From the NCBI RefSeq assembly GCF_024666525.1, contig NZ_CP088294.1:1612001-1676000 (forward strand): DNA of 64,000 nucleotides, in the 5' to 3' direction. A program made the position numbers and the translations under genes. Origin of the DNA: Pseudomonas sp. J452. Its GTDB lineage: Bacteria > Pseudomonadota > Gammaproteobacteria > Pseudomonadales > Pseudomonadaceae. Position 1 is the first letter of the stretch, and every line of letters begins with the position of its first letter. This document shows positions 6,017 through 25,484 of the stretch, piece by piece. The notes below the pieces were generated by a model. That model made no database searches. It saw only the letters and a program-made list of their open reading frames with translations, and was not told the origin of the DNA.

Positions 6017-7180
6017 TCACTGCTCATCCGGCTTCTGCCGGGCTTGCAAGGTTTCGTATAGCGCAGCCAACTCCGCTTTCTTCTGGTCGAAGGCTATCCG
6101 CAGCGCGGTATAGGCTGCAGTTGCATCATGTGCAGACTGATCAGCCCGTAGGCGTGATTGCTCCAATTCATCGAACGCATTGCGTAGTGCCATGTAGGCC
6201 TGCGAAGCATTTTCGAGAGCCGAGTCTTTTGCTTCCAGCAGGGTACTTAGCTCGGTGTTGCGCTGTGCTGATGGCGTGGGGAAATTCAGGCCTAGTATTG
6301 TGCCAGCAGCTGAGTCGCCGAGGATGCCCGCAATGTATTGGGGTTTGTGCAGCAGCAGCAGGGCAAGATCGTCATAGCTGTCAATGCGCGGCAGGTTGAG
6401 ACCGTGCAAGGTTTCTGCAAGCGCATCGACGGCCTGCATGGAAATAAGCAGTAGGCCAACTTCCCGGGCATTGCCGAATATATTGATCGGGGAATGCCGG
6501 TGGTTCTGTTCGTTGAACGCCGCCACGTTTATTCCATAGGCAAGGTAGCCATGCTGCGTTGCCCATTCGAGGAAACCCTGACTACCGTGCAGCGAGTTGA
6601 CCTCAAGGAAGATAATGGGCGCATGGGCGTTGATCGTTTGCTCCGCCCCCTGGAGAAGTTGCAGCTCCATACCTTCTACATCCACCTTCATGAAGTGGAT
6701 GGGCCCAATATCCAACTCGTCGAGCGCCTGCATTTGCACTGTGATCGATTGTGCCCCGGCTAGCTGAATGGAGCTCGCGCTCGCGCGATTATGGCTCTCT
6801 TCCGCGAGCTGCAGGGTCATCTCGGTCGTACTGGTACTCAGCCCGATATTGAACAGTGCAATGTTTGCCTGTGGCGCTGCCAGCACATTTTGCTGCAGGA
6901 TCTTGAATGTACTGGGCGTGGGTTCGAACGCGTAGACATTCCCGCTGGGACCCACTTTCTCGGAAAATGCGCGGGTATGCGTACCAATATAGGCCCCGGC
7001 ATCAATTATCCGGTCGCCGGGGTTGATGAATGCGCATAGCAGGTCGATTTCCTGCTGTGCCCACTCGCCATATTGCCGAATGGAGTTGCAAATCAGGTCA
7101 TCGTCCACGGTGATAAAGAAGTCGCCATAACGGGCTTCTATCTTGAGTGTGTCCGGAGGCGGCATTTGCTCTTCACGCAT
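6017..7180 (-). CDS. FkbM-family methyltransferase with C-terminal coiled coil
   Basis: Predicted SAM-dependent O-methyltransferase of a sugar. The 387 residues have the class I SAM motif IIDAGAYIGTHTRAF (about 60-75), an acidic post-motif (YAFEPTPSTFKILQQN) and the FkbM hallmark MKVDVEGMELQLLQGAE. A roughly 90-residue tail rich in A, E, Q and L follows, with repeats such as AKDSALENASQAYMALR and later AYTALRIAF, predicted coiled coil. The start chosen is the ATG at 7180, with GGAG seven bases upstream; a TTG four codons earlier is less likely. It is the last gene of the minus-strand polysaccharide locus. The tail resembles that of the second FkbM protein at 21285-22268. The acceptor sugar is unknown. 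Confidence 0.85.
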   Translation of the reverse strand: MREEQMPPPDTLKIEARYGDFFITVDDDLICNSIRQYGEWAQQEIDLLCAFINPGDRIIDAGAYIGTHTRAFSEKVGPSGNVYAFEPTPSTFKILQQNVLAAPQANIALFNIGLSTSTTEMTLQLAEESHNRASASSIQLAGAQSITVQMQALDELDIGPIHFMKVDVEGMELQLLQGAEQTINAHAPIIFLEVNSLHGSQGFLEWATQHGYLAYGINVAAFNEQNHRHSPINIFGNAREVGLLLISMQAVDALAETLHGLNLPRIDSYDDLALLLLHKPQYIAGILGDSAAGTILGLNFPTPSAQRNTELSTLLEAKDSALENASQAYMALRNAFDELEQSRLRADQSAHDATAAYTALRIAFDQKKAELAALYETLQARQKPDEQ

Positions 7181-7250
7181 AACGGGCTCCAAGGCCTATG
7201 GCGCCATTGCAGGCGGGAGTTGATGGGGTGCGGTTGCTGGTGTCGAAGAG

Positions 7251-8366
7251 TTAGCGAGAGTCCAGTACCTCTCGGTAGAGCAGCATGTACCTTTCGACCA
7301 TATGTTGACTGGTAAAGAGGGACTCATATCTCTGTTTTGCTTGCTGGCCCAGGGTTTCGCACAATTGTGGATCCGACCACAGCCTGTCCATGGCCGTACG
7401 CAAGGTTGCAGGAGCGCTAGGTGGGACCACAATGCCAGTCGTGCCGTCGATGTTGACGAAGGTTGTCCCTGTGCCAATTTCGCTGGAGATCAGTGCCTTC
7501 CCGTACATGGCGCCTTCCAGTAAGGAAATGCCGAAAGCTTCTGAACGCAGGTGCGAAGGAAACAGCACCGCATAGCAAAGCTGGAACAATGCCGCCTTGT
7601 CTTCCTCGCTCACTTCGCCGACCAGGCGCAAGTTGGTTAGACCAAGCTGTGCGGCCTGTTCGCGTAGCTCATTCTCAATTGGGCCTGCGCCGGCAATCAC
7701 CACCGGATACGGCGAGCCGGCCATGGCTTCGAGCAGGATGTGCAGCCCTTTGTAGTAGCGCAGTACGCCCATGAAAAGGAAGAATTTGCTGCCTATCCGT
7801 GACTGCCATTTGTCCAGGGTTTGCTGGCTGGGCGAGACGTAGGTACTCCTGTCCAGGCCATAGGGAATCACCCGGATTTTTTCCCGATAGCGCTGCAGTA
7901 CTTCGCTGGTGTCGACATAGTTCGGCGAGGAGGCAACTATTCTGTCCATGTGTGACAGAAAGCTGTGCATCAGGGGTTTATACAGCTGTAACAGGGTCTT
8001 TTGCTTGACGATGTCGGAGTGGTAGCTCACTACGCAGGGCTTGTTCAGCCTGCTGGCAAAGTGCACCAGATCCATGAATGGCCACGGAAAGTGGTAGTGC
8101 ACCAGGTCGGCTTCTCGTGCCAGCTCCTTGAAGTCGGAAAAAGCGCTGAGGGAAAACGCCGTCGAGGCAATCTGGAGGTCGCGCTTGGAGCAATGGCTAA
8201 GGTGTTTGCCTATCGGCCGGTTACGGGCTGCTCCCTGTGGGCTGAGGAACAGTACCTCGGTGTCTATGCCATTGGCCTGCGCGCCTTCGGCAAGCTGATA
8301 GATGACCTGCTCGACTCCGCCAAAGCTGTCGGGATAGTAGCTCTTGTAGAAGTGCAACACTTTCAT
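7251..8366 (-). CDS. Glycosyltransferase family 4 (WbpZ-like)
   Basis: Predicted GT-B retaining glycosyltransferase of 371 residues. The N-terminal half shows HFYKSYYPDSFGGVEQVIYQLAEG, typical of family 4 acceptor domains. The C-terminal half has FLFMGVLRYYKGLHILLEAM, PVVIAGAGP and the E-x7-E nucleotide-sugar site in SEAFGISLLEGAMYGKALISSEIGTG. Its ATG shares one base with the stop of the upstream glycosyltransferase (TGATG). In the P. aeruginosa common-antigen locus WbpZ adds the first D-rhamnose to the lipid-linked primer. Context and size fit that role here, but assignment to WbpZ rather than another mannosyl/rhamnosyl transferase is inference. Confidence 0.88.
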   Translation of the reverse strand: MKVLHFYKSYYPDSFGGVEQVIYQLAEGAQANGIDTEVLFLSPQGAARNRPIGKHLSHCSKRDLQIASTAFSLSAFSDFKELAREADLVHYHFPWPFMDLVHFASRLNKPCVVSYHSDIVKQKTLLQLYKPLMHSFLSHMDRIVASSPNYVDTSEVLQRYREKIRVIPYGLDRSTYVSPSQQTLDKWQSRIGSKFFLFMGVLRYYKGLHILLEAMAGSPYPVVIAGAGPIENELREQAAQLGLTNLRLVGEVSEEDKAALFQLCYAVLFPSHLRSEAFGISLLEGAMYGKALISSEIGTGTTFVNIDGTTGIVVPPSAPATLRTAMDRLWSDPQLCETLGQQAKQRYESLFTSQHMVERYMLLYREVLDSR

Positions 8367-9508
8367 CAAATCTGCTCCAAATACCTGTACGCCGCGAGAG
8401 TGTCTGCAGCGCAGCGCGTCCAGGAAAAGGTTTGGCTATGTCGTAGCCCCTCGTCCCGTGCGAATGCTTGCCAGTCGGCATCTTCAAGACCCTGCTGCAG
8501 TAGGCTCGAAAGCCCTTCCACATCCTGTGGATCACCCTGCAAGGCCGCTTTGCCGGCCACCTCAGGTAATGAGGAACTGTTGGAGCAGACCACGGGGACA
8601 CCGCTACTCATCGCCTCCAGAACGGGCAGGCCGAAGCCTTCATAGAGCGAGGGAAAGCAGAACAGACGTGCACCTGCGAACAGCGACGGCAGATCGTTGG
8701 CTGGGACAAACCCCAGATAACGAGCCCAGCCCTGCTGGCTCGCGCGCTCGATTGCCGTGTGAATGGCGTCGCTGCGCCAACCTTTGAACCCACTCAAAAC
8801 CAGTGGCCAACGCTGGCGTACCGATAGTGGCAAGCGTTCGTAAGCACTCAGCAGGTTGAGCAGGTTCTTGCGTGGCTCAATGGTGCCGACATACAGGCTA
8901 TAGCCACCGTGTGTCAGACCATAGTGATTGAGTGTCGTCCTAGTGGTATCGGCATTGCGCGGATGAAACTCAGCGCTGCTGGCCAGCGGCACGGCATGAA
9001 TCTTATCCAGGGGAAAGCCGAAGTAGTCTGCAAGTTCAAGGCGGGTGAACGCCGAGTCGGTGATCAAGGCATTGGCCCGCCTGAGGGTCAGTTCCAATTC
9101 TTTCTGCATGAAGCGGATGCGTTCTGGCGGAGCACAATCGACCCACTTGAAGGGGGATAGGTCGTGAAAGGTGGCAATGCTGCGGCCAGGAAATGGTGGC
9201 AGATAGAAATTCGTGCCGTGATAGATAAAACTCTCGCAATGGCGTAAGGCACGTCGTTTGATCAGCGGCATCAGGCGGCGGTAAACCTCGCTGGCCAGTC
9301 GGCTTTTCTGGATGCGCTCTTTCAGGCGCTGGCTGCTCATCGCCTGCTCACCGGCCATTGGCAGGTGGGGGACAAAGCCAGTCATACCGAACAGGCGCAG
9401 CTCATCGACCTGCGGGTTTTGCTGCAGTGCCTGCGCCAGCTCATAGGTATAGCGCCCAATGCCAGTGAGCGGAAAGCGCACCGGCTCTACAGACAGGATG
9501 ACTCTCAT
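8366..9508 (-). CDS. Glycosyltransferase family 4 (WbpY-like)
   Basis: Predicted GT-B glycosyltransferase of 380 residues. It begins MRVILSVEPVRFPLTGIGRYTYELAQAL, the glycine-rich acceptor-side loop of family 4. It continues with IATFHDLSPFKW, the donor-side YVGTIEPRKNLLNLLSAYE, and the E-x7-E motif in FPSLYEGFGLPVLEAMSSGVPVV. The start overlaps the rmd stop by four bases and the stop overlaps the next glycosyltransferase, so rmd and the two transferases form one tightly coupled block. By position and size it corresponds to WbpY, which extends the D-rhamnan primer in P. aeruginosa; linkage specificity cannot be read from the sequence. Confidence 0.88.
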   Translation of the reverse strand: MRVILSVEPVRFPLTGIGRYTYELAQALQQNPQVDELRLFGMTGFVPHLPMAGEQAMSSQRLKERIQKSRLASEVYRRLMPLIKRRALRHCESFIYHGTNFYLPPFPGRSIATFHDLSPFKWVDCAPPERIRFMQKELELTLRRANALITDSAFTRLELADYFGFPLDKIHAVPLASSAEFHPRNADTTRTTLNHYGLTHGGYSLYVGTIEPRKNLLNLLSAYERLPLSVRQRWPLVLSGFKGWRSDAIHTAIERASQQGWARYLGFVPANDLPSLFAGARLFCFPSLYEGFGLPVLEAMSSGVPVVCSNSSSLPEVAGKAALQGDPQDVEGLSSLLQQGLEDADWQAFARDEGLRHSQTFSWTRCAADTLAAYRYLEQI

Positions 9509-10404
9509 TGTCTTTCAGCCAGCATCCAGCGCAATGTGCTATCCAGTGATGGCGTGTCCCAGTCGCCAATCAGTTCGCGCAGGTGCGCGGCGCTCCCCCA
9601 GAGCGATCTGACCTCGTTGGCTCGGACAAAGGCCGGATTGACCCGAACCTCCAGTTGGTGCCCAGAGATGGTGGCGCACATCTCTATGACCTCGCGCAGC
9701 GAATGGCTGCGCTCCGAGCAAATATTCACCGTTGTGCCATTGACGCCGCACTCAAGCAGGCGCCGATAGGCGCTGACCAAGTTGCGTACATCGGTAAAGT
9801 CGCGCGAAACATCGAGGTTGCCGAGCTCGATGAGCGGTGCCTTGCGGCGGAAGTGAGAAACGATCTTTGGCAGCAGGAATTGCTCGGCCTGGCCTACTCC
9901 CGTGTAGTTGAATGGGCGAGCAATGACCAGCGGCAAGCGATCACACCACAGGCGCGCCATGGCCTCCATGGCCATCTTGCTGACGGCATAGTCATTGGCG
10001 GGGGCCAAGGCCGCGCTCTCACTGAGCATGCCGGGTGTGGCGTTGCCATACACATTGGCGCTACTGGCCAGCAGAACCCGCTCAGGCGCTTTACCCATAC
10101 TGGCGATGGCTTCCAGCAGGTTGCGAGTGCCTATCACATTGACCTGGTAGAAGGCATTGGCATCACCGTGCTGGACGAATGCCAGGGCTGCCAGGTGGAC
10201 AACATAGTCGGGTTGCAACTCCCCCAAGCAGGCCTGTAAGGCTTGCCCGTCGGTCAGATCCACTTGGCGGTAGTCCGGCTCCGGGCTGGCCTGCGAGCCG
10301 AGGCCAGTGACCCGGTAACCATGGCGGCGCAGTTCATCGACCATAAAGCGCCCGGTAAAGCCCAGGGCGCCGGTGATCAGGGCATGCTTGAGATGATTGT
10401 CCAT
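9505..10404 (-). CDS. rmd: GDP-6-deoxy-D-mannose reductase
   Basis: Reduces GDP-4-dehydro-6-deoxy-D-mannose, the product of Gmd, to GDP-D-rhamnose. The 299-residue extended SDR has ALITGALGFTGRFMVDELR at the N-terminus, VVHLAALAFVQH, the serine of LLASSANVYGN, the catalytic Tyr-Lys in NDYAVSKMAME, and RPFNYTGVGQAEQFLLPKIVSHF, typical of Rmd. It lies between an acyltransferase fragment (three-base gap) and a WbpY-like gene (four-base overlap). With gmd at 12390 and manC at 23730 it completes a GDP-D-rhamnose pathway. GDP-fucose synthases are related but carry different motifs, so D-rhamnose is the better call. Confidence 0.9.
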   Translation of the reverse strand: MDNHLKHALITGALGFTGRFMVDELRRHGYRVTGLGSQASPEPDYRQVDLTDGQALQACLGELQPDYVVHLAALAFVQHGDANAFYQVNVIGTRNLLEAIASMGKAPERVLLASSANVYGNATPGMLSESAALAPANDYAVSKMAMEAMARLWCDRLPLVIARPFNYTGVGQAEQFLLPKIVSHFRRKAPLIELGNLDVSRDFTDVRNLVSAYRRLLECGVNGTTVNICSERSHSLREVIEMCATISGHQLEVRVNPAFVRANEVRSLWGSAAHLRELIGDWDTPSLDSTLRWMLAERQ

Positions 10405-10407
10405 GAG

Positions 10408-11160
10408 TCACTGTTCCATTAGCGAGGTCGCAGTTGATCGATGATTAAGACCAGCCAGCCATGAGGCAAAGTGACGACCCATTAGTTCTGCCCCTTCAGG
10501 GGTAAGGTGATGCGTATCGTATGTAATGGGGCCGCCGCGACTGCCGACTACTTGGCAGCTTTGTGCTGTGGGGCAGAGCGCAGATAGAGAATTGAAAAAA
10601 AGAACGCCTTTCTGATTGGCAATAATTTCAATCTCTTTATTAATGGCGATAGTTTCGGGGTCGATAAAGCCTGCTGCGGCCTCTTCAATTCCGGCGAATG
10701 ATTTATGTTTTTGGTAAATGCCTGTGCTGCTTGCAAGCATGTGCTTCTGTCCGACGATAACTATCGTGGCTTTAGTTTCCTTCTGTATATGTGCGATAGT
10801 GTCCGGCAAGTACTTGGTCAAGTATTTGCTCCAATATGGGCTGATAATTATGAGATTGCTGCCCTTTAATGCGTTAGGAGAGAATGCAGTGTTTCTTTGT
10901 TTTTCGCACTGCTCTCGGTTTGACTTTGTTTTTATGAAGAGAATGTTCTCGTCATTGTAGAATTTATCCAGATTTTTTGTGGGTACTACCACCGCTCCGC
11001 AAGAATATTGCACGTGATGAACCCGTGGCGGAAAGTTCAGGCTTGGCGCGGTTTCTATTTGCGATATTGCATTTAGCATGTCTGCGGCTTGTGAATCACC
11101 AACTAGATATGTTTTAGAGTCGTTATTTTTTTGGCCTCTAGCTTGCGCCAGAGTGCCCAC
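10408..11160 (-). CDS. SGNH-domain half of a split OafA-type acyltransferase
   Basis: C-terminal part of an O-antigen acyltransferase. It contains the SGNH/GDSL-like hydrolase domain: TYLVGDSQAADMLNAI (nucleophile block), a central GSNLIIISPYWSKYL, and the C-terminal catalytic Asp-His pair in TYDTHHLTPEGAELMGRHFASWL. The only start is a GTG at 11160, without a good ribosome-binding site, lying in a different frame inside the end of the upstream half. Adding one A to the run of seven A (11128-11134 on the complementary strand) would join both halves into one protein of about 660 residues. It may be a genuine break, phase variation or a sequence error. The DNA is visibly AT-richer than neighbouring rmd. 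Confidence 0.7.
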   Translation of the reverse strand: MGTLAQARGQKNNDSKTYLVGDSQAADMLNAISQIETAPSLNFPPRVHHVQYSCGAVVVPTKNLDKFYNDENILFIKTKSNREQCEKQRNTAFSPNALKGSNLIIISPYWSKYLTKYLPDTIAHIQKETKATIVIVGQKHMLASSTGIYQKHKSFAGIEEAAAGFIDPETIAINKEIEIIANQKGVLFFNSLSALCPTAQSCQVVGSRGGPITYDTHHLTPEGAELMGRHFASWLAGLNHRSTATSLMEQ

Positions 11161-12341
11161 ACATAATCCTTGTCGTTGATGTCGTACTGTGCAAGGAACT
11201 TTGTCGCCTCCGAATAGCGCCAGGTCCAGCCTCGATTAGCCCAGGCGTCGGCAGCGGGGAGTGTCAACGCTAAGGCTGCAATAGTGCAGCAAAGTGCAAA
11301 TCCGGTATTTGATGATTCGTTAGTGTTTGGTTTGCTATATCGCAGAGGCTTTTCTATGAGTAGGTATAATAGGGTCGCCAAGATAAATGTGGCGGCAACC
11401 AATACTGCTTGTTGCAGCCCATTGAGGCTGTTGCTCTGGGTGTATTTAAAGAAAACTACTAGAGGCCAATGAACTAAATAAAGTGAGTAACTGAGCAGTC
11501 CTATAGTGGTTGCTGGGCGGGAAGATAGTAGCCTGCCTACAGGGTTGGATGGGCCTGCTTGTATCAGGCAGGCAGTACCAATACAGGGCAGCAGTGCAAG
11601 TAAACCCGGAAATCGCGATGTTTCGTCGAGTGAGAGTACGCTGTAGGCGATTAGTCCGAGTCCAATAAACGCGAGGGTCGAATTTCTGTAGGAATTTGGT
11701 CTGCTAAGGCTCTGAGTCCAATACAGAATTCCGCCTATAGCGAACTCGAAAATTCGCAGTGGCATCCAGTAAAATGCCGAGGATGGCGATTTTGAGAGCG
11801 TGTATTCGCAAAGAATTAGGCTGGCTAGCCCTAGTGCAATAAGGATATACGGAGTCGCTTTTTTTGCATTTCGAATGCAGATGTAAAGAAGAGCTGGCCA
11901 AATTAAATAGAATTGTTCTTCTACGCTGAGCGACCATGTGTGCAGTAAGGGTTTGAGGCTGGCCTCAGTATCGAAGTAGCCTGCCTGATTCCAGAAATAA
12001 ATATTTGAGACGGATGCTAGAGAGTAGACCAGCGATCCGGCTAGCTTTTCTAAGTCTTCAGGCGAGAACAATAATGTTGCGCTAATAAATGTGATGGCTA
12101 GCACGGTGAATAGTGCTGGAAATAGTCTTCGTGTTCTGCGTAGATAGAAGCTCTTAAAGCTAAATTTATTTCGGTTAATATCCTCAAGGACTAGTCGGGT
12201 AATCAAAAAGCCGCTGATCACAAAGAAAATATCAACCCCAACGAAACCTCCTGAAAAGAACGGTATGTCGAAGTGGAAAAATATTACAGAGAGAGCTGCT
12301 ATGGCTCTCAATCCGTCGATTTCTGGGTTGTATTTTTTCAT
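11103..12341 (-). CDS. Acyltransferase 3 membrane domain, frameshifted from its SGNH domain
   Basis: Integral membrane O-acetyl(acyl)transferase of the OafA/acyltransferase-3 family, expected to acetylate the polysaccharide at the inner membrane. It starts MKKYNPEIDGLRAIAALSVIFFHF, the conserved RxxAxxxVxxxH region with catalytic histidine. GGFVGVDIFFVISGFLI and LLHTWSLSVEEQFYLIWP follow, with about ten membrane segments. The frame ends after LEAKKITTLKHI, just past an A7 run; one more A would continue into the SGNH domain. I prefer the ATG at 12341, the usual family start, although a GTG at 12368 has a better ribosome-binding site. AT-rich, probably acquired separately from rmd and gmd. Confidence 0.82.
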   Translation of the reverse strand: MKKYNPEIDGLRAIAALSVIFFHFDIPFFSGGFVGVDIFFVISGFLITRLVLEDINRNKFSFKSFYLRRTRRLFPALFTVLAITFISATLLFSPEDLEKLAGSLVYSLASVSNIYFWNQAGYFDTEASLKPLLHTWSLSVEEQFYLIWPALLYICIRNAKKATPYILIALGLASLILCEYTLSKSPSSAFYWMPLRIFEFAIGGILYWTQSLSRPNSYRNSTLAFIGLGLIAYSVLSLDETSRFPGLLALLPCIGTACLIQAGPSNPVGRLLSSRPATTIGLLSYSLYLVHWPLVVFFKYTQSNSLNGLQQAVLVAATFILATLLYLLIEKPLRYSKPNTNESSNTGFALCCTIAALALTLPAADAWANRGWTWRYSEATKFLAQYDINDKDYVWALWRKLEAKKITTLKHI

Positions 12342-12389
12342 ATGTTCTATTGTGGGGTGTGCGGGCACAGTAACTGTCCCCGCATAAAG

Positions 12390-13493
<1,104 letters not shown>

Positions 13494-13609: not shown

Positions 13610-14385
13610 GTTACAGGCGCATTTCCCTGCATCGATCATCAAATGTCGGCGCGCCATCCACAGATTCGACAGAGCGAATAGCATCATAAGCTGTGCGTGC
13701 TTTTGGCCAGTCCATGGAAACGTACCTTGGCATAGCCGAACTGGCGCGTGATCACCCAGAACGGGTGTTCAACCTTGGCGCACACCTGCGCCTTGGCCTT
13801 CTCGATCTTGCGTTTAGCCTTGTACAGAGCTCTTCCGGTATAACCAGCGGCGGCACAGACCGCGTTTCCTTCGCAGTGCAGCAACGGGCTACCTGATTGA
13901 CATCAGACATGTTGGTCGCCGTATCTGTCACGCTATACACCAGGCCAGACTCAGGGGCGGCGCCAATGTGTGCCTTCATGCCGAAATAGTACTGGTTGTC
14001 CTTCTTGGTCTGGTGCATCTCAGGATCATGCTTGCTGCCCGCGTTTTTGGTCGAACCTAGCGCATAAATGAGGATGGTATCGACGATAGTGCCTGGCTCG
14101 ACGACAGCTGGGCGAGCTGGCGCTATACGAGATGAACTCCTATAGCGCCCCTTCCACCGCCCGGGTCGCTGAAAGCAAACCAGTTTTGTAGCAGGTGGAT
14201 ACGCATCATGGTTCCCAGCGGATACGGTGGATCGCCATTCCCGACATTGGGATAGAACGATTCGATCAGGGCCAGTATTTCTACCCACGGAGTCACCTGC
14301 TCCATCTCTGCGAGGAAGCGTTCACTTCGGGCCTGTTTGCGTTTACCAGCGTGCTCAGCATCGGAAAACTCATTTGGGGCATGCG
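13610..14385 (-). pseudogene. Degenerate IS5-family transposase
   Basis: Fragments in shifting frames read as an IS5-group transposase. They are FSDAEHAGKRKQARSE and QVTPWVEILALIESFYP (14300-14375), then IHLLQNWFAFSDP. IVDTILIYALGSTKN and DPEMHQTKKDNQYYFGMKAHIG come near 14000. ALYKAKRKIEKAKAQV, KVEHPFWVITRQFGYAKVRF and LFALSNLWMARRHL follow down to about 13630. At least three disruptions are visible: a missing T near 14367, an extra G and an in-frame stop near 14130-14160, and internal deletions near 14100 and 13860. I could not find convincing terminal inverted repeats, so the ends are approximate. It cannot make active transposase. It sits between gmd and an acyltransferase, marking a past rearrangement of the locus. 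Confidence 0.85.
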
Positions 14386-16505: not shown

Positions 16506-16813
16506 TTCAAGTAGGCTCAATCTCTATGGCTCTTTGCAGCCTTGGTAATGGGAGAATCTTAATGTTATGGGCGGAGAAACTTGCATGCAAAGTCTGATCT
16601 TTCGGTACGCTGCTGCCCTAAATTTTGTATCGATCAAAATCGGCGTCCTAGTGCTGATAGCACTGTTGACGCCCAGGCCTTTGCTTTCAAAGCCCAGCTG
16701 CTACGTCGTTCCTGTGACCAGTAGCATGTAACATGCATGAGCCTGTGCACGCCTATATTGGAAAATTTTCTGAGTTGGTGCTCTCGGCAGGTCACGCTTT
16801 GAAGGTAATTAGG
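16506..16813. other. Intergenic stretch without a recognised gene
   Basis: About 308 bases between the sulfotransferase-like gene and the acyltransferase, both on the minus strand. I see no coding frame of useful length, no strong terminator and no clear promoter hexamers. It may be remnant DNA from a deletion or old insertion, since most other gaps in this locus are under 70 bases. Confidence 0.5.
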
Positions 16814-17515: not shown

Positions 17516-17518
17516 TGT

Positions 17519-18670
17519 TCAGCGAATCGTAATTGCAGAAAAGGCAATTCCAAGAAGCCTGTTGTCCAGTTCGGCAGGCTTGCATGGTGCAATGGATGAT
17601 ATTTCTATGTGCGTGTGTGTTTTATTGGTAATGGCGTGCTCTGGTATCTCGTACGTCAGTACATTTTCAAGCCTCGCCGGACTCTTTAATTTTTCACCAT
17701 TGTAGATGATGCTCATTGAGTCAATGTGGCTGGGTGTGATCGCGTGAAAGATGGTGAGTGATATGGTTTTCTCTCTAGGCGCTATTTTTCCAAAATAGAT
17801 ATTCGCTGTAGCGGATGGGCCAGTGAAGCGCCATTGCACTTCTGAGTTTTCTTCGCGTGTGTGCCAGCCATCGCCTGCCAGGGGTTGGTCGAATGTGTAA
17901 TAAAGTTCGCTTTGTTCGGGAGATTGCTCAAGGTCTTTTATAAATCGCTCACGGAGCATTTCTCGAAAAGCATTTTCGTAAGAAGAAAGCATTTTCTGTC
18001 TCGCGTATTCATAAATCATGTATTCGAACTTGTTTCTGTTTAAGAACTCATTCTTTGTGGCTTGCGCCACGTCGTAGTTGGTGCGCTGGGTTGAGTTTCT
18101 AATAACAGGGTTTTGAGGCGCGCTATTGGTTTTATAAGCAAGAAGCTGGAGGCTTTTCTCCATGTCTTCCACTATTCCTATATAGTGGAATTTGTCGAGA
18201 TTTTGGCAGGCCATTTCATAGCGCTGCTCAAGGCTATGGCTGGCGTTAAATACATCGCCGGATAGAAAGAACAGTTGATTGTTCTGTACTCTTCCGCGAA
18301 TGCCCCTCTCTTGGGAAAGAAGATACTCATCAAGAGATAGTGATTGTATTCTCTTTATGACGTCGGCTTGTTCTGGCGGCAAGCTGGAAAAATCATAGCT
18401 GCCTTTTTTGACGAAAAAATACTCCGATATCGATCTCTCAAAAGGGTCGCGTAGGAACGTGAATACTTTATCCCCTATGCAGGGGCGTCTCTCGATAAAT
18501 GAAATGTCGAAATGGCCGTGAATTAGTTTGGTCGTATTCTGTGCGTCAATATCCAGAATAAACCTGTTCGGATCCTCTACATGCACAACTTCATTCTTGT
18601 GGTGTTTCGCGGAAAGAATTTCTCTGACTGCTACGCCAGCGGTTTTTGGTATATGAAGAAATATCCACAT
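17519..18670 (-). CDS. Sulfotransferase-family protein with extra C-terminal domain
   Basis: A 383-residue protein whose first 230 or so residues have the sulfotransferase fold signature. It starts MWIFLHIPKTAGVAVREILS (5'-phosphosulfate loop), then KVFTFLRDPFERSISEYFFVKKG (3'-phosphate site) and NNQLFFLSGDVFN. From about residue 255 a second module begins: LYYTFDQPLAGDGWH, then VQWRFTGPSATANIYFG and a beta-rich run ending in LLGIAFSAITIR. This looks like a jelly-roll or carbohydrate-binding-like domain that I cannot assign. It precedes the shorter paralogue by three bases and follows the large glycosyltransferase by 14, so all three should be co-transcribed. Confidence 0.75.
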   Translation of the reverse strand: MWIFLHIPKTAGVAVREILSAKHHKNEVVHVEDPNRFILDIDAQNTTKLIHGHFDISFIERRPCIGDKVFTFLRDPFERSISEYFFVKKGSYDFSSLPPEQADVIKRIQSLSLDEYLLSQERGIRGRVQNNQLFFLSGDVFNASHSLEQRYEMACQNLDKFHYIGIVEDMEKSLQLLAYKTNSAPQNPVIRNSTQRTNYDVAQATKNEFLNRNKFEYMIYEYARQKMLSSYENAFREMLRERFIKDLEQSPEQSELYYTFDQPLAGDGWHTREENSEVQWRFTGPSATANIYFGKIAPREKTISLTIFHAITPSHIDSMSIIYNGEKLKSPARLENVLTYEIPEHAITNKTHTHIEISSIAPCKPAELDNRLLGIAFSAITIR

Positions 18671-18684
18671 TGGTAGTCGGCCTA

Positions 18685-21234
18685 TTAACGAGCCTGGCGA
18701 GCACGGATTTCAGTGCAGCGGCTTTTCTGCTGTGCGGAAACCTTTAATGCGGAGTTTGAGCTCATTATGTGTTGCGCTGCTAAGGAGCCAATGGTTTTGG
18801 CTCGGTCTTCTTGCTTATAGACTTCATACATTTTGGTCGCAGCGTCTTTCTGACTGGGCTCTGCCCAAAATTGTCCCTTCTTGTACGGGCCATAATCTTT
18901 CGTCAGTTCAACAAGTTCGTAGCTGACAGGCAACGAATTCTCTTCATTCATAAAGTCCACATTGCCAGACCAATTTGTCGCAATCACAGGTTTGCCCAGA
19001 TACATGGCTTCGGCAATCGGCAAGCCAAACCCTTCTGCGCGATGCAGGCTAACGTAGCAGTCGCAGGCATTGAGCAGGTTGTTGAGGGTATTGCGATCCA
19101 GGTATTCGTGGATGAGCTGAATGCGCGGCTCTTCGTCCATGGCGGCGAAGATGGCTTCCGATAGCTCCGGCTGGTGGTCGAGGTTGGACAGCTTGATGAT
19201 CAGCTTGACCTTGGCCTCTGGTTTATCGGCAAAGGCTAGGCGGAATGCCTCCACCACGCCCATGGGGTTCTTGCGCTGCGGAATGCTCAGCACGTCGGAC
19301 ATGTGCAGGAAGATGAAGTGGTCTTCCGGCAGATGTAGGTCTGCGCGGCTGAGGGGCTTCTCGATCTTCACCTCGATGGCGGGCGGGATCACGTGCACGG
19401 GTTTGTCGGTGTACTTGGAGATGGCCTGACGGTTGTATTCGGTAGAGACCCAGATTTCATCGACCTGCTCATAGGCGAAATGCAGGAAGTCCGGGAATTC
19501 GGGCATTTCCCAGTACCAGTAACCGATGGTGTAGCGCCCATCGAACAGTTCTTTACCCAGGTGCTCGCGGGCGACCCTGGTCTGGTCGGCGTTCACGTGC
19601 ATCAGGTTGATGGGGTACAGCGCTTCGTTCACATGTCCGTCGATGACTTCGCCCATTCGCGAGATATTGCCGAGGCGGTAGTCGATAAGGGAATAGGGCA
19701 GTTCGGAGCAGCGTAGAGCGCGTAACGAGGCGCGGGCGGCTTCGCCGACACCGCTCTCGGCGTGCAGATAACCAATCAGGTTGATGCCGGTTTCCAGGCT
19801 GCTGGGCAGTGCCGGTGCAGCTTCCTGTCCCGGCGCTGTCAATAGCGGACGAGGGTAGGCCTTGCGTAGTACCCAGCCCGCATAGGGATACAGGGCAATG
19901 CGCAGATTGAGCGGGATGCGCTTGCGCTGCTGCCAGGCCAGGCGGAACAGGCGGCTGCTGACATGGCTGACTGGCGAGGCGGGCTGTTGGGCGATCTGGC
20001 TGCGCCCCCGCTCGACTTCGGCGCGAATGGGTTGCAGGTAGATATCGTGCAGGCCTGCTTCGCGTGGCGCCGACTCCAGGAGCCAGTCTGCAAAGCGGAT
20101 GCTGTCGATGGTGTCTACGACCGGGAAGGCCGTGCGCAGATCCTCGCGGGACTCCCATAGGGCCAAGGCCAGTGCGGTCAGGGCAATACCGTCACGAGGC
20201 GAGGTGACTCGGCGGTTGAGCGCGGCATGAATATGCGGACACTGGCTGCTGTCGAAGAAGTCGATGTCGCCCAGTTTATTGCTCGTGCGTATCAGGCGCC
20301 TCGCAGCATCTGGCACCTTAACGCCATCGGCGAACAGGCTAAAGGCATAGGGGAGGCTGCTGAAGCGTTCGATCCCATTACGCTGCAGAGCCGTCTCATA
20401 AAGAGTACAAAGCGCTCGTAGAGCGCGGTTGGAGTTCTTATTGAAGCGATTCTGGTGCTTGCTCAGTGTGCTTGCATCAATCGAGAAGCCAGAGAAGTGG
20501 AAGAAGGTCAGTGGCTTGCCATCAACGGTGTAGCTGCCCTGGGAGTCCTGGCCGAGCTGGCGATGGTTGAGGTTCCAGTAGGCAATGTTCCAGCTGGTAT
20601 CGCGATTGATGTACACGCCATTGAACATGGACGGGACAAGGTCCATCCACTTTTGGTCGACGAATAGGTTGCGCGGTAAGTCGACCACGCACTCTTTGTA
20701 CAATTTGTCTTGCCACCACTTCACCAGTTTCAGGGTTTCTTCGCAGGTGCGCAGGGCGATATAGCCGAGGTTGTAAGAACCGGCCTGGAGTATTTGTAGT
20801 TCGGTCGGGGTTTTACCGTCGTCCAGAATATCGGTCAGGTGCGGGGTCAGCAGTACATTGTGCTGGTCGAGTAGACCCAGCATTTCGTCCAGTGGGCGGA
20901 ATACGCGAATGTCGGGGTCGAAATATATAACCTTACGATATCCCCGCTTCATCAGCAGTTCGATGATGTAAGGTTTGATTGCGGTATTCAGTTCAAGAAT
21001 CGAATACTGGTAGATGAAAGTGCCAAGTTGGGGAATTTCCAACTGATCAATCGAAACGATATCGTCCGCAGTCGGGCAGTCTGTATCAGCAGTCTTGAGA
21101 TCACACAGCCCTAGCACTAGATCAGCTGATGGGCAGTGTTCCTGGAGGCTTTCGAACAATGTATTGGCATAGTGCAAATAGTTGTTGGAGACAATCGTGA
21201 AAATGCAAATGTCGCGGTTCATCTCAGGTGACAT
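18685..21234 (-). CDS. Two-domain glycosyltransferase (WbpX-like C-terminal part)
   Basis: An 849-residue fusion. The N-terminal part (about 1-300) has CIFTIVSNNYLHYANTLFESLQ and VIYFDPDIRVFRPLDEML, the DxD-type metal site of a GT-A fold related to family 8. The middle is alpha-helical. The C-terminal part (about 480-830) is a GT-B family 4 domain with NLIGYLHAESGVGEAARASLRAL, TIGYWYWEMPEFP, FLHMSDVLSIPQRKNP and the E-x7-E site in HRAEGFGLPIAEAMYLGKPVIA. Two catalytic domains suggest a polymerase making two linkages of the repeat unit. In P. aeruginosa WbpX is the shorter single-domain counterpart. The start is either 21234 or the ATG at 21222; the first has GGAT upstream. Confidence 0.85.
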   Translation of the reverse strand: MSPEMNRDICIFTIVSNNYLHYANTLFESLQEHCPSADLVLGLCDLKTADTDCPTADDIVSIDQLEIPQLGTFIYQYSILELNTAIKPYIIELLMKRGYRKVIYFDPDIRVFRPLDEMLGLLDQHNVLLTPHLTDILDDGKTPTELQILQAGSYNLGYIALRTCEETLKLVKWWQDKLYKECVVDLPRNLFVDQKWMDLVPSMFNGVYINRDTSWNIAYWNLNHRQLGQDSQGSYTVDGKPLTFFHFSGFSIDASTLSKHQNRFNKNSNRALRALCTLYETALQRNGIERFSSLPYAFSLFADGVKVPDAARRLIRTSNKLGDIDFFDSSQCPHIHAALNRRVTSPRDGIALTALALALWESREDLRTAFPVVDTIDSIRFADWLLESAPREAGLHDIYLQPIRAEVERGRSQIAQQPASPVSHVSSRLFRLAWQQRKRIPLNLRIALYPYAGWVLRKAYPRPLLTAPGQEAAPALPSSLETGINLIGYLHAESGVGEAARASLRALRCSELPYSLIDYRLGNISRMGEVIDGHVNEALYPINLMHVNADQTRVAREHLGKELFDGRYTIGYWYWEMPEFPDFLHFAYEQVDEIWVSTEYNRQAISKYTDKPVHVIPPAIEVKIEKPLSRADLHLPEDHFIFLHMSDVLSIPQRKNPMGVVEAFRLAFADKPEAKVKLIIKLSNLDHQPELSEAIFAAMDEEPRIQLIHEYLDRNTLNNLLNACDCYVSLHRAEGFGLPIAEAMYLGKPVIATNWSGNVDFMNEENSLPVSYELVELTKDYGPYKKGQFWAEPSQKDAATKMYEVYKQEDRAKTIGSLAAQHIMSSNSALKVSAQQKSRCTEIRARQAR

Positions 21235-21284
21235 GTGATCCGTATTCCCTATCTGTCTAAACTTGGCTTGGACGCGGGGGCAGG

Positions 21285-22268
21285 CTAGGTTTTTACTTGC
21301 TGTCCTAGTCCGCTCTGCTGTTCGTCGAATTGGCGCCGTATCTCCTTGTAAGCCTCTGCGGCATCTTGCAACGCAGCGTCTTTCTGTTCGAGTAAGCTCT
21401 TGAAATTTTTTATTTCTCTCTGAAGCTCTTCGTAGGCATGTGCGGCGTGTTGTAATGCAGCGTCTTTCTGGCTGAGTAGTTGCTCAAAATTCGCTATCTG
21501 AAGATTATTGGCTTCAAGCTGCTGGGCTAAGTGTTTGCATGCTTGCTCGGCAAGATGCTCGTGGTAGCTTTTGAAGCGATCGAAGACATTGGGTGGTGTG
21601 CTGCACTCGGGTAGGCTCAGCGGAAAGTCTTTGCGGTAGTAGAACCGATTGAGGCCGTCGCAATAGAAAAGGCAGTAATGCTTTGCTATCAGTGGCTCCC
21701 AGTCTTGGTGCGTGGGCTTCAGAGATTCAGGGTGAACAGCCTCTATCAACAGAATACTGGGGTTCACCACGGCAAAGTTTGCGCCAAGTAGTACCTCTTT
21801 CTCGAAGCCTTCCACATCGATCTTGAGGAAGTCGACGCGCTGCGTGCCTACGTATTTCAGCCAGATTTCGTTGAGCGAGACGACCTCTACATCGATTTCC
21901 TGGATGACTCGCCCTGTGCTCTGATAATGGCTTGCCAGTCCGTTTTCCAGCGTGGATGTGCCTTGATCCTCGGTGATGTAAAGCGTCTGGCGGCCCGACT
22001 GACGCCCCACGCACAGGTTCAGGTTGGTGTCGCGAGTACGCTCTCGCTGTAGTTCTGCGAACAGTAGCGGTTGTGGTTCGATGTTGATGCCGTGCCAACC
22101 ACGCAGGTAGAAGTGCTGGGTCACTGAATCGTAGATGGGGTGGCATGCACCAATATCTACGTAGAACCCCTTAGCTTCATTCGCGAATATGCGGCTGAGG
22201 ATGATGTCCTCGCGGTTTTGTGCATAGCTGATCCGCTCGTCGCATGGTTCTGTTGAGGCAATGCTCAT
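21285..22268 (-). CDS. FkbM-family methyltransferase with repeated coiled-coil tail
   Basis: Predicted SAM-dependent methyltransferase of 327 residues. Motif I is FYVDIGACHPIYDSVT, followed by INIEPQPLLFAELQ and the FkbM hallmark VDFLKIDVEGFEKEVLLGAN. From about residue 255 the chain is heptad-like and includes a near-duplicate: LLSQKDAALQHAAHAYEEL and then LLEQKDAALQDAAEAYKEI. The same motif occurs in the FkbM protein at 6017-7180. The ATG at 22268 follows AGGAG by seven bases and shares one base with the wzt stop (TGATG). Placement directly after wzm-wzt fits a role in finishing the chain before export, but the methylated position is unknown. Confidence 0.86.
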   Translation of the reverse strand: MSIASTEPCDERISYAQNREDIILSRIFANEAKGFYVDIGACHPIYDSVTQHFYLRGWHGINIEPQPLLFAELQRERTRDTNLNLCVGRQSGRQTLYITEDQGTSTLENGLASHYQSTGRVIQEIDVEVVSLNEIWLKYVGTQRVDFLKIDVEGFEKEVLLGANFAVVNPSILLIEAVHPESLKPTHQDWEPLIAKHYCLFYCDGLNRFYYRKDFPLSLPECSTPPNVFDRFKSYHEHLAEQACKHLAQQLEANNLQIANFEQLLSQKDAALQHAAHAYEELQREIKNFKSLLEQKDAALQDAAEAYKEIRRQFDEQQSGLGQQVKT

Positions 22269-22918
22269 CAAGTACTCCTGATCCTGCCGCCCTCGAAAGT
22301 TACGACGCTATCGGTCCAGTTTTTGAGTTTCACCGGTGAGTGGGAAACCAGTACGAGCGCGCAGCCATTTTCGATTGTGTGCATGACGGCTTGCTCACAT
22401 TTCTTCTGGAAGTCTTGATCGCCCACTGACAGTACTTCGTCAATCAGCAAAAGGTCGACATCCATGGCCAGGGCTACTGCGAAACCAAGGCGTGCACGCA
22501 TCCCGGAGGAGTATGTGCCGAGAGGATCATTCATCTGCTCGCCCAGCTCACAGAACTCATGGATATACGCCAGTCTCGAGCGTGCATCGCGCGCGCTCAT
22601 ACCCATGAGCATGCCGCTGAGCAAGGCGTTATCCCAGCCATTGAGTCGTGGATCAAAGCCAGCTTGTAGAGAAAGCATCAACACTCGGGCGCCATGATTG
22701 ACAACCTTGCCCCGGTCGGGGGTATAGATACCGGCCATAAGGCGCAGCAGCGTCGATTTGCCTGCGCCGTTGTGTCCCATGATCCCAAGGCGTTGGCCGG
22801 CGTGGATATCTAGGGTGACTCCGTTGATTACCGGGTGGTCGCTGGTTCGAAACGCGGAGCGCCGCACGCGGTAGCTTAGATGCACGTCGTGCAGCTTGAG
22901 CAGCAGTGGTGTGCTCAT
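22268..22918 (-). CDS. wzt: O-polysaccharide ABC exporter ATP-binding subunit Wzt
   Basis: ATPase of the Wzm-Wzt exporter that moves lipid-linked O-polysaccharide across the inner membrane. The 216 residues contain Walker A GHNGAGKSTLL, Q-loop region LSLQAGFDPRLNGWDN (the unusual Q-loop of polysaccharide exporters), ABC signature YSSGMRARLGFAVAL, Walker B LLLIDEVLSVGD and the switch histidine in LVSHS. It stops after the ATPase domain. The C-terminal carbohydrate-binding domain found in long Wzt proteins such as that of the P. aeruginosa common antigen (about 420 residues) is missing. One base separates it from wzm and its stop overlaps the FkbM start. Confidence 0.94.
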   Translation of the reverse strand: MSTPLLLKLHDVHLSYRVRRSAFRTSDHPVINGVTLDIHAGQRLGIMGHNGAGKSTLLRLMAGIYTPDRGKVVNHGARVLMLSLQAGFDPRLNGWDNALLSGMLMGMSARDARSRLAYIHEFCELGEQMNDPLGTYSSGMRARLGFAVALAMDVDLLLIDEVLSVGDQDFQKKCEQAVMHTIENGCALVLVSHSPVKLKNWTDSVVTFEGGRIRST

Positions 22919-22919
22919 G

Positions 22920-23714
22920 TCATTCCTGGATAATTCGTGCGTACTGTTGGTTGAAGCGGCTCAGCATAGCAAGTACCAATGTGCTGCTCAGTAACGTGGC
23001 TGCGGCGATGATGCCGAGTAATTGCCAGTCAGGTTGATTGCCGCGAATCAGAATTTCCCGGTAGCTCTCCAGTAGCACATAGACGGGGTTCAGGTTGAGT
23101 AGCCATTGAAGGTGTGCGGGGATGATGTCTCGCGTAAAGAAAACACCTGAAAGAAACATGCCAAGTTGTAGGCAGGCCGGCACTATGACCCGTAGGTCTG
23201 GAAGGAAGGGCATCAGCGTGGCAACAAGGCCTGCCAGCGAGATAGTCAGCAGCAGCTGAATCAGGAATATGACAGGGTAGATCAGCAGCAACTTGCCCGG
23301 TTGGTAGCCGAGTAGCCAGAGCACGACAAGGAGGATAAGCGTGACTATCAGTTGTTTTGCCGTGTCTCGGAAAATCTCTGCAAGGGGGAAGATTGCCACA
23401 TGCAGCGGGAGCTGCAGGATTAGCCCGCGTCCAACCATGATTGATGCACTGGCGTTCATTACTGACTTGGACAGCCATAGCCAATGGACAATGCCTACCA
23501 GCAGGTAGGCTACATAGTCGTCTCCGCCATGGCGCAATAGCACACCGAACGCTAGATAATAGACGATTAGGTGCATGGCTGGTTCGATCAGCCACCAAAG
23601 GTACCCTAGGCGGGTGCCTTTGGACTCCGATTTGAGCCCCATTAGAGCGCGATACCATGCGAGACGGAGGTCGTCGATAACGATGCCTCTGCGCATGCTT
23701 GTTGAACCAAGCAT
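22920..23714 (-). CDS. wzm: O-polysaccharide ABC exporter permease Wzm
   Basis: Membrane subunit of the O-polysaccharide exporter, ABC-2 type. The 264 residues carry an amphipathic N-terminal segment (LRLAWYRALMGLKSESKGTRLGYLWWLIEP) typical of the gate helix region. About six membrane helices follow, including HLIVYYLAFGVLL, LIVTLILLVVLWLLGY, LLIYPVIFLIQLLLTISLAGLVA and LLGIIAAATLLSSTLVLAML. The LPDLRVIVPACLQLGMFLSGVFF segment is characteristic of the family. It lies 15 bases after manC and one base before wzt, so the three are one operon unit. Confidence 0.93.
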   Translation of the reverse strand: MLGSTSMRRGIVIDDLRLAWYRALMGLKSESKGTRLGYLWWLIEPAMHLIVYYLAFGVLLRHGGDDYVAYLLVGIVHWLWLSKSVMNASASIMVGRGLILQLPLHVAIFPLAEIFRDTAKQLIVTLILLVVLWLLGYQPGKLLLIYPVIFLIQLLLTISLAGLVATLMPFLPDLRVIVPACLQLGMFLSGVFFTRDIIPAHLQWLLNLNPVYVLLESYREILIRGNQPDWQLLGIIAAATLLSSTLVLAMLSRFNQQYARIIQE

Positions 23715-23729
23715 CTAGGTTTCCTTGGG

Positions 23730-25157
23730 TCAGAGCCGGCCGTAGTTGTCTTCGAAGCGTACTATGTCGTCTTCGCCCAAATAATCGCCGCTCTGAACCT
23801 CGATGAGTACTAGATCGATGACACCCGGATTGGCGAGTCGGTGTTTGTTGCCTGCCGGGATGAAGGTGGATTCATTGCTGTTGAGTATCAGCTCGTTATC
23901 GCCGTTGACGACCTTTGCGACACCGCTGACGACAATCCAGTGTTCACTGCGATGGTGATGCATTTGTAATGAGAGGGAGGCTCCGGGGCGAACCACTATT
24001 CGCTTTATCTTGAAGCGATCACCTTCCTCAAGCGTGGTGTAAGTGCCCCAAGGGCGATGCACGGTTCGATGCAAGATATGGGCATCATGGCCGTTGCTTT
24101 TAAGCTGGCTAACAATGCTTTTTACATCTTGTGCATGTTCCTTGTGGGCAACCAGGATGGCGTCTGGAGTGTCCACTATCACCAGATCGTTAACACCCAC
24201 GAGAGCGGTCAAGCGTTCGGGGCTGTGAACAAAATTATTGTGCGCAGTGTGCGAGAGCACTTCTCCGATGCACCGGTTGCCGTTCGCGTCCGGCGCGGTG
24301 AGTTCACTCATTGCATTCCATGAGCCAATATCGCTCCAGCCCAGATCGCAGGGCACGGTTGCAACGTTGGCGGAGCGCTCCATCAGGGCGTAATCGATAG
24401 AGATATCTTCTGCCAGGCTAAATGCATCGGCATTCAATGTCAGGCGGCGTCCACTCTCATTAGTGCGGCCAGTTTCGACTGCAGCCAGCACGGGAGTCAG
24501 TACATTGGGCGCATGGCTAGCCATTTCTTCCAAGAGGCGGCTGACCTTGAAGCAGAACATGCCGGAGTTCCAATAGTAGTTCCCGGCAGAGCAGTAGCTT
24601 TCTGCGGTCACCAAATCGGGTTTCTCGACAAATCGATGAACCTTGAAGCCTTCAGGCCATTCTTGCGTACGGTCCGCTTCGATGTAGCCGAAGCCTGTTT
24701 CCGGATATAGCGGCTTGATACCGAAAGTCACCAGCCAACCGTTTTCGGCCAGGTTGCGGGCTTTGGCGACAGCTTGTGCAAAGGCTTCTTCGTTCTGAAT
24801 CAGATGGTCGGCTGGTAGCACCAGCATGAGGGCGTCCGGCCCATAGAGTTGCTGCAACTGAACGGCGGCACTGGCAATGGCTGCGGCAGTATTGCGGCCG
24901 AAAGGTTCAAGGACGTAAGTCAGGTTGCACTGTTGGGTGCTGACGGCGGCATAGACATCTTCTGTTGCAAAGAACAGCTCTCGATTGGTCACCGTCATGA
25001 CGTTGAGGGTGCCATCTAGGGCTAATGCGCGCAGCAGGGTCTTCTGGAGGAGATTCTGCCCATCAGGGAGTGGAAGAAAGGGCTTCGGATGAGACTCTCG
25101 GGAAACTGGCCACAGGCGACTTCCTGCTCCGCCGCAAATGATCACTGGGTACAACAT
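23730..25157 (-). CDS. manC: Mannose-1-phosphate guanylyltransferase / mannose-6-phosphate isomerase
   Basis: Bifunctional type II enzyme that supplies GDP-D-mannose. The N-terminal guanylyltransferase (about 1-340) starts MLYPVIICGGAGSRLWPVSR with ESHPKPFL, the pyrophosphorylase signature, and has FVEKPD and NSGMFCFK. The C-terminal cupin isomerase (about 350-475) has RPWGTYTTLEEGDRFKIKRI, metal-binding histidines in QMHHHRSEHWIVVSG, and NKHRLANPG. The 475 residues are standard. It is the first gene of the minus-strand locus and corresponds to wbpW of the common-antigen cluster. The locus promoter should therefore lie in 25158-25375, where I cannot pick out convincing hexamers. An AAGGA precedes the ATG. 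Confidence 0.96.
   Translation of the reverse strand: MLYPVIICGGAGSRLWPVSRESHPKPFLPLPDGQNLLQKTLLRALALDGTLNVMTVTNRELFFATEDVYAAVSTQQCNLTYVLEPFGRNTAAAIASAAVQLQQLYGPDALMLVLPADHLIQNEEAFAQAVAKARNLAENGWLVTFGIKPLYPETGFGYIEADRTQEWPEGFKVHRFVEKPDLVTAESYCSAGNYYWNSGMFCFKVSRLLEEMASHAPNVLTPVLAAVETGRTNESGRRLTLNADAFSLAEDISIDYALMERSANVATVPCDLGWSDIGSWNAMSELTAPDANGNRCIGEVLSHTAHNNFVHSPERLTALVGVNDLVIVDTPDAILVAHKEHAQDVKSIVSQLKSNGHDAHILHRTVHRPWGTYTTLEEGDRFKIKRIVVRPGASLSLQMHHHRSEHWIVVSGVAKVVNGDNELILNSNESTFIPAGNKHRLANPGVIDLVLIEVQSGDYLGEDDIVRFEDNYGRL

Positions 25158-25408: not shown

Positions 25409-25484
<76 letters not shown>

Follow-up and report, generated by a model that had tools for sequence, protein, structure and literature searches.

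Does a pseudomonad sulfate its O-polysaccharide, and with which enzymes? The question is raised by a gene cluster at positions 6017-25157 of a 64,000-nucleotide stretch of DNA from Pseudomonas sp. J452 (contig NZ_CP088294.1, positions 1,612,001 to 1,676,000 of the forward strand; hereafter the window), which lies inside a genome composed of a single contig of 4.86 Mb. An initial annotation made from the sequence alone described a candidate locus for a sulfated, methylated and O-acylated D-rhamnan built on a core like the common polysaccharide antigen (CPA) of P. aeruginosa. The named genes were found, all on one strand as that annotation stated (the minus strand), in the order manC, wzm, wzt, fkbM1, GT849, ST2, ST1, AT3-AlgX, an insertion sequence (IS) fragment, gmd, AT3, SGNH, rmd, GTb, GTa and fkbM2 (Table 1). 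Profile matches confirmed two FkbM methyltransferase genes, three glycosyltransferase (GT) genes and the Wzm/Wzt genes for ABC-dependent export. The reading favoured here, with a probability of roughly 0.68, is that the cluster makes a D-rhamnose-containing O-polysaccharide that is sulfated in the cytoplasm before export by two enzymes, ST1 and ST2.

Predicted sulfotransferases ST1 and ST2

Window proteins were annotated with Pfam and NCBIfam profiles at curated cut-offs. ST1 and ST2 matched PF03567 (Sulfotransfer_2) with 42.1 and 27.6 bits, both over the cut-off of 22, and the motifs LHIPKTGG/LHIPKTAG and LRHP/LRDP were found in both proteins, confirming the two sulfotransferase-fold genes originally proposed. 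The top structural neighbours of both models were heparan sulfate (HS) 2-O- and 6-O-sulfotransferases, at 17.2/16.8 versus 12.5 for the next group with ST1 and 18.6/18.2 versus 11.3 with ST2 (VIA alignments of Foldseek candidates, a ranking that re-examines Foldseek's own hits and from which absence excludes nothing). ST1 and the N-terminal domain of ST2 resemble these animal Golgi enzymes, which act on heparan sulfate, in predicted fold and in active-site residues; the identity is only ~20%, and ST2 has an extra domain resembling a carbohydrate-binding module (CBM).

The binding site for the sulfate donor 3'-phosphoadenosine 5'-phosphosulfate (PAPS) was compared residue by residue. His142 of HS 2-O-sulfotransferase, its position counted on the alignment, aligned with the second His of HGH; the H142A variant retains <1% activity according to PMC6094399, and roles of the PAPS-loop Lys, Ser and His are described in PMC11625862 and PMC6094399. 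Residues K11, H56, R75 and S83 of ST1 were kept in 12/12 aligned rows, and in ST2 R74 and S82 were kept in 14/14 rows, H53 in 13/14 and K9 in 12/14 (one row starts later and one has G), the rows including the window proteins and representing 12 of 15 ST1 matches and 14 of 86 ST2 matches. Conservation of the active-site residues led us to reject a non-catalytic sulfotransferase fold, the outcome that the initial annotation had named as speaking against it: with PAPS-site and catalytic residues intact and models matching catalytic glycan sulfotransferases, the comparisons support the assignment of ST1 and ST2 as sulfotransferases.

The model of ST2 contains a second, C-terminal domain (residues 254-383) predicted to form a CBM-like beta-sandwich. 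A Pfam scan of the isolated domain gave no match and a sequence search with it returned ST2 relatives only. The strongest 19-residue hydrophobic means were 0.90 and 1.01 for ST1 and ST2, with no strongly hydrophobic stretch, values consistent with cytosolic enzymes.

Proteins like ST1 are rare, with 15 matches at E<=1e-3 in ~5.8 billion sequences, the window included; the same kind of search returned 86 relatives of ST2. Contigs of 17651, 16760, 17665 and 93762 bases occur in both lists (P0029 being the partner in the fourth case), the equal sizes suggesting that relatives of the two share contigs in at least four cases. A scan of genome contigs with ST2 confirmed no relative, and a scan with the ST1 alignment gave four loci, with a close relative only in Pseudomonas sp. 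PDM16. There, an ST1 homologue (56%) adjoins an open reading frame (ORF) matching the ST2 C-terminal domain only, the pair lying near wzm-wzt-fkbM-GT849 (53-74%), and the locus also encodes a Sulfotransfer_3/1 protein and another ST1-like protein. The ORF with the ST2 piece (L012:13879-14376) is directly before ST1 and beside an ORF judged aceF-like from its translation by eye; it looks as if the sulfotransferase part of ST2 had been lost at the locus border.

Sugar supply and comparison with the CPA locus

The GDP-D-rhamnose pathway posited in the initial annotation (manC, gmd, rmd) is supported by profile and structure-database matches. No close paralogue of gmd was found in the genome, the next match having 26% identity. 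The best solved relative of the rmd-like protein is a 'putative epimerase' (4lw8), and named GDP-6-deoxy sugar reductases matched with E 1.9e-38 (6x3b) and 5.6e-38 (2pk3); identity was 71% to the rmd of Pseudomonas genome G315, which adjoins gmd and manC, and only 35% to that of PDM16.

PDM16 and another Pseudomonas genome, G432, have a separate locus with the order rmd, gmd, manC, wzm, wzt, GT, GT, GT (the wzm place in G432 being an unscanned ORF), the inner gene order of the P. aeruginosa CPA cluster. The main CPA cluster comprises eight genes, from rmd to wbpZ, according to PMC6804347. GTa and the final GT of the PDM16 and G432 CPA-ordered loci share 56-60% identity over 369 aa, and GTb and the penultimate one 39% over ~375 aa, each pair being reciprocal best hits within the sets compared; the putative WbpZ- and WbpY-like activities are judged from these two loci rather than from PAO1 sequences. 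No full-length WbpX-like enzyme was found in the window, the third GT of PDM16 and G432 matching GTb only partially (32-34% over ~160 aa) and that of G432, and only G432, matching GT849 with 28% over 134 aa.

The export genes have other relatives. Window wzm is 70% identical to PDM16 wzm2 versus 22% to its CPA-type wzm, and wzt 74% to PDM16 wzt2 versus 39% to the CPA-type wzt; wzm, wzt and GT849 match a second, separate PDM16 locus at 70-74%. G432 also holds wzm-wzt-GT849 (64-72%), in a 20-kb stretch in which none of the sugar-nucleotide or sulfotransferase genes of the window was found. Near-full-length homologues of GT849 (66-70%) occur in 3 of 398 Pseudomonas genomes including this one, with the two best candidates scored per genome; their co-occurrence with GTa (3/3) was discounted because GTa has matches at E<=1e-60 in 140 of the 398. 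The window Wzt is without PF14524 (Wzt_C), a domain carried by the CPA-type Wzt of PDM16 and G432 and presumably by that of PAO1.

Since GTa and GTb match the CPA-ordered loci and wzm, wzt and GT849 match the second PDM16 locus, the sequence comparisons place the window as a join of CPA-type sugar and priming genes to a different transporter/polymerase module. The likeness to CPA first claimed for the core holds for manC (wbpW in P. aeruginosa), gmd, rmd and the two WbpZ- and WbpY-position GTs; it fails for WbpX, for the CBM on Wzt, and for the transporter and GT849, which come from a second system. Identity with the CPA locus itself was ruled out by the Wzt without Wzt_C, the missing full-length third GT and the other wzm and wzt, and the window further departs from that locus in its gene order and in the addition of GT849, two sulfotransferases and AT3 enzymes. 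With no full-length WbpX-like enzyme and no carbohydrate-binding domain on Wzt, a homopolymeric D-rhamnan is not established; a D-rhamnose-containing chain is likely.

Sulfotransferase genes across Pseudomonas and PAPS supply

PF03567 had 111 matches in 98 of the 398 Pseudomonas genomes. Surroundings were taken for all 111, including the two of the window and the one of PDM16, in loci that apart from the window span 11.6-19.9 kb, some ending at contig ends, with score cut-offs set by the analyst; the loci being short, counts within 10 kb are lower bounds. Seventy-three matches adjoin msbA and hldE, with 72 located between the two genes (for example L099:7457-12268), and 63 of the 73 are accompanied by a gene for adenosine 5'-phosphosulfate (APS) kinase, which in every case separates the sulfotransferase gene from hldE or lies toward it. 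Another 20 matches, in 19 genomes, have wzm and wzt within 10 kb (the window contributes two of these and PDM16 one), and the remaining 18 are elsewhere. These results suggest sulfation of the core of lipopolysaccharide (LPS) by the msbA-hldE-linked enzymes, which probably form one homologous family and do not represent independent events.

An APS-kinase gene was found within 10 kb of 85 of the 111 matches (82 genomes), in 84 cases in loci without a CysN part, the single neighbour in a locus with a CysN part being that of G314. A rough estimate puts such linkage by chance at <1%, taking two such genes in ~6 Mb, and the linkage appears to be the best indirect sign that the LPS-linked genes really sulfate. 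A sulfotransferase gene combined with wzm/wzt and gmd was found for four matches: the two in the window, one in G156, where the sulfotransferase gene comes immediately after that for a 178-aa APS kinase and before a GTa-like gene, and one in G315, where ~18 kb encode a 203-aa APS kinase, a Sulfotransfer_3/1 protein, a Sulfotransfer_2 protein, rmd, gmd and manC. Sulfated O-polysaccharide was initially described as not known from Pseudomonas; the idea that it is foreign to the genus is weakened by the finding that sulfotransferase genes adjoin LPS genes in many species, sulfation itself being predicted from the genes. Separately, an rml-linked locus (L086:5424-10409) encodes a 1661-aa protein with Sulfotransfer_2, WbsX-like, GT2 and GT4 domains, and open frames of 1626-1668 aa around matches in six other genomes suggest the same fusion.

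APS-kinase matches in the J452 genome occur only at 373.6 kb and 4709.5 kb. As judged from sequence, PAPS would be supplied by two CysNC proteins, neither encoded near the cluster and each with an adjoining CysD-sized ORF; identities between the two cysD/cysNC sets are 49% and 70%, the CysNC copies having 49%. The second set lies at 4.71 Mb (G000:C1:4707240-4710061; L129:5241-8062), and close copies of its CysNC (86-97%) occur in six other Pseudomonas genomes. It was rejected as a dedicated PAPS supply because it is present in relatives without PF03567 matches.

Relation to known sulfated polysaccharides

Sulfated glycans of bacteria are known mainly from marine capsules and rhizobia. Clusters for sulfated polysaccharides are already known, and the genus-wide pattern in Pseudomonas is the more interesting outcome. 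Among the matches listed in the open-licence literature, judged by titles and abstract starts, there was no report of sulfated Pseudomonas LPS. Two papers describe capsule clusters of marine Cobetia marina KMM 1449 (PMC11766843) and Vibrio sp. KMM 8419 (PMC11641403), and their reference lists name a sulfated polysaccharide from a marine Pseudomonas species. The capsule clusters and the window have in common sulfotransferase genes beside rhamnose and glycosyltransferase genes and ABC export, and in the Vibrio polysaccharide rhamnose likewise bears O-acyl groups; the capsule clusters have kps genes, L-rhamnose and their own PAPS-synthesis genes, whereas the window has Wzm/Wzt, D-rhamnose genes and no PAPS genes in the cluster. 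The association of sulfotransferase and PAPS-synthesis genes that PMC11641403 gives as the hallmark of the marine type is absent from the window; the same paper proposes O-antigen sulfation from a sulfotransferase gene.

Proposed pathway and alternatives

We infer the substrate, the order of steps and sulfation itself from the genes, predicted folds, catalytic residues, linkage and PAPS-making genes described above. GDP-D-rhamnose would be made by ManC, Gmd and Rmd, and a lipid-linked chain would be started by a WecA/WbpL-type enzyme encoded elsewhere; the genome encodes a PF00953 initiator-type protein of 351 aa besides one of 360 aa, which we take to be MraY. The first D-rhamnoses would be added by the WbpZ- and WbpY-like GTa and GTb, and GT849 would extend the chain. 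With PAPS as donor, ST1 and ST2 would sulfate hydroxyl groups on the lipid-linked glycan, ST2 probably gripping the chain through its CBM-like domain. PAPS is cytosolic and neither enzyme has a strongly hydrophobic stretch, and therefore sulfation should precede export. The FkbM enzymes would methylate the chain, possibly ending it, and export by Wzm/Wzt would be followed by O-acylation by AT3 enzymes, the AT3-SGNH and AT3-AlgX types presumably acting on the periplasmic side.

Several findings weigh against this pathway. The cluster has no APS-kinase gene in it or within 10 kb, unlike most of the census loci, and five of the six genomes with close copies of the second CysNC (G173, G249, G028, G054 and G432) have no PF03567 match. 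ST2 scored only 5.6 bits above the PF03567 cut-off, the AlphaFold2 input alignments were shallow (12 rows for ST1 and 14 for ST2), and the PAPS loop of ST1 (residues 9-14) had a predicted local distance difference test score (pLDDT) <50, with five models varying from 80 to 43. With one acyltransferase gene split between two frames and the operon interrupted by an IS fragment, part of the cluster may be decaying. A single partial match to PF05159 (profile 145-284), the capsule-type family to which we assume that both KpsC and KpsS belong, lies 88 kb beyond the window.

WbdD adds phosphate or methyl in E. coli O9a, and in a comparable manner ST1 and ST2 might cap or end the chain instead of decorating every repeat, with ST2 placing a single sulfate or a few on the non-reducing terminus to signal that the chain is finished. 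The CBM-like domain of ST2 would suit this role, as would the fusion of PF03567 to Wzt_C in one protein (P0070) of a metagenome-assembled genome labelled Rudaea. It would also accord with the heptad-repeat tails of both FkbM proteins: the 3.5-residue periodicity of the FkbM1 tail was reached by 2 of 2000 shuffles versus 1418 of 2000 for residues 1-200, and that of FkbM2 by 15 of 2000 versus 1697 of 2000 for residues 60-260, with tail limits set by the analyst. The FkbM1 homologue of PDM16 (L012:6678-8210, 510 aa) has a longer tail with six motif units, compared with two in FkbM1 and one in FkbM2. In the systems described in PMC11231755, coiled-coil rulers mark chain terminators and a CBM on Wzt reads the cap, a CBM that the window Wzt does not have, and a single cap would need fewer than two sulfotransferases; capping by sulfate is thus unlikely. 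As a lead only, the FkbM proteins could set chain length. They share with the WbdD-type terminators of E. coli O9a and Klebsiella (PMC11231755; see also PMC3482155) a methyltransferase with a heptad-repeat tail in an ABC-dependent cluster; they differ in belonging to the FkbM family, in their short tails, in that no kinase domain was found in them and in the Wzt without CBM, and a terminator role is putative.

Less probable still is that the two genes merely sit in an O-antigen cluster and that their products sulfate a different component of the envelope (the LPS core, a glycolipid or an exopolysaccharide made separately). The position of 73 of the 111 Pseudomonas matches in the core region indicates that the family may more commonly serve to sulfate the core. 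Against this alternative, ST1 and ST2 lie inside the operon between glycosyltransferase and acyltransferase genes, their PDM16 relatives are likewise found near wzm-wzt-fkbM-GT849, and the cluster contains the only PF03567 matches of the genome. A decaying, non-functional cluster that makes no sulfated polymer, as the transposase fragment, the two-frame AT3/SGNH and the PDM16 ORF retaining only the ST2 C-terminal domain might indicate, is very improbable considering that the other genes each give single-frame domain matches, ST1 and ST2 retain the active-site residues checked, and the AT3/SGNH overlap has a homopolymer run at which slippage or sequencing error is possible.

Gene organization and surroundings

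Table 1. Features of the cluster and its flank, in window coordinates.
Feature	Description	Position	Strand	Evidence
manC	Mannose-1-phosphate guanylyltransferase / mannose-6-phosphate isomerase, GDP-mannose supply	23730..25157	-	TIGR01479 584.9 bits, cut-off 372.95
wzm	ABC-2 membrane subunit of O-polysaccharide exporter	22920..23714	-	PF01061
wzt	ATP-binding subunit, 216 aa	22268..22918	-	ABC_tran present, no Wzt_C
fkbM1	FkbM methyltransferase 1, heptad-repeat (coiled-coil-like) C-terminal tail	21285..22271	-	PF05050 95.4 bits
GT849	849-aa glycosyltransferase, GT4-type C-terminal domain, candidate polymerase	18685..21234	-	PF00534
ST2	Sulfotransferase domain (~1-249) and C-terminal CBM-like beta-sandwich (254-383)	17519..18670	-	Sulfotransfer_2, predicted fold
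ST1	Single-domain sulfotransferase	16814..17515	-	Sulfotransfer_2
AT3-AlgX	AT3 membrane O-acyltransferase fused to AlgX-like SGNH domain	14412..16520	-	PF01757 107.1 bits, PF16822 54.7 bits
IS fragment	Transposase fragment (DDE_Tnp_1) between AT3-AlgX and gmd	13752..14288	-	PF01609 24.0 bits, cut-off 23
gmd	GDP-mannose 4,6-dehydratase	12390..13430	-	PF16363 (GDP_Man_Dehyd) 468 bits
AT3	AT3 half of frame-split OafA-type gene	11103..12368	-	PF01757 120.5 bits
SGNH	SGNH half of frame-split OafA-type gene	10408..11160	-	PF19040 'SGNH domain (fused to AT3 domains)' 56.9 bits
rmd	rmd-like GDP-4-keto-6-deoxy-D-mannose reductase	9505..10404	-	4lw8 E 1.6e-98
GTb	GT4 glycosyltransferase resembling WbpY-position enzyme	8366..9508	-	Best hit both ways, CPA-ordered loci
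GTa	GT4 glycosyltransferase resembling WbpZ-position enzyme	7251..8369	-	Best hit both ways, CPA-ordered loci
fkbM2	FkbM methyltransferase 2, heptad-repeat tail	6017..7192	-	PF05050 74.5 bits
rmlB, rmlA, rmlC	dTDP-L-rhamnose genes, cluster flank	3470..5945	-	PF16363/PF01370, PF00483, PF00908

Of the two OafA-like acyltransferases initially annotated, both AT3 proteins are present and one is frame-split as sequenced. The AT3 and SGNH ORFs overlap in different frames, with an A7 run at 11126-11132 in the overlap, and look like one split AT3-SGNH gene. The SGNH ORF has five other matches in the genome (19-23% identity) in open frames of 621-756 aa, demonstrating that unsplit relatives exist; slippage or a phase switch, mutation or sequencing error are possible causes of the split.

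The GC content of the cluster genes is 44-61%, compared with 61-68% in four measured flanking genes, and is lowest (44-46%) in the ST1, ST2, AT3, SGNH and AT3-AlgX ORFs, which suggests separate acquisition of the genes for decoration and of those that build the polymer. Whether the flanking rmlB-rmlA-rmlC genes belong to the cluster is uncertain; rmlA is within 10 kb of 11 of the 20 wzm/wzt-linked sulfotransferase matches in the genus. A tRNA-Thr gene at 25409-25484 has its 3' end pointing toward the cluster. A tRNA-Thr island was considered and rejected, there being no direct repeat >=20 nt involving the tRNA in window positions 1-26500 and no tRNA in 25 other loci scanned.

Significance

At somewhat short of an even chance, we propose that sulfated LPS is widespread in Pseudomonas and has until now gone unrecognised; many species would sulfate the core by means of a sulfotransferase paired with an APS kinase of its own, both encoded between msbA and hldE, and others the O-chain. 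The window would then represent a case in which a D-rhamnose-containing chain, exported by an ABC transporter without a CBM, is the substrate of two sulfotransferases, one of which holds the chain through a CBM-like domain of its own. ST2, as modeled, would be a naturally occurring fusion of a sulfotransferase with a CBM and might find use in the synthesis of sulfated glycans of defined structure. If the proposal is true, sulfate would give the bacterial surface a heparin-like motif and a strong fixed negative charge, which could alter how phages, bacteriocins, antibodies, and plant or animal hosts recognise it. The census makes it a testable question whether sulfated LPS is common in Pseudomonas.

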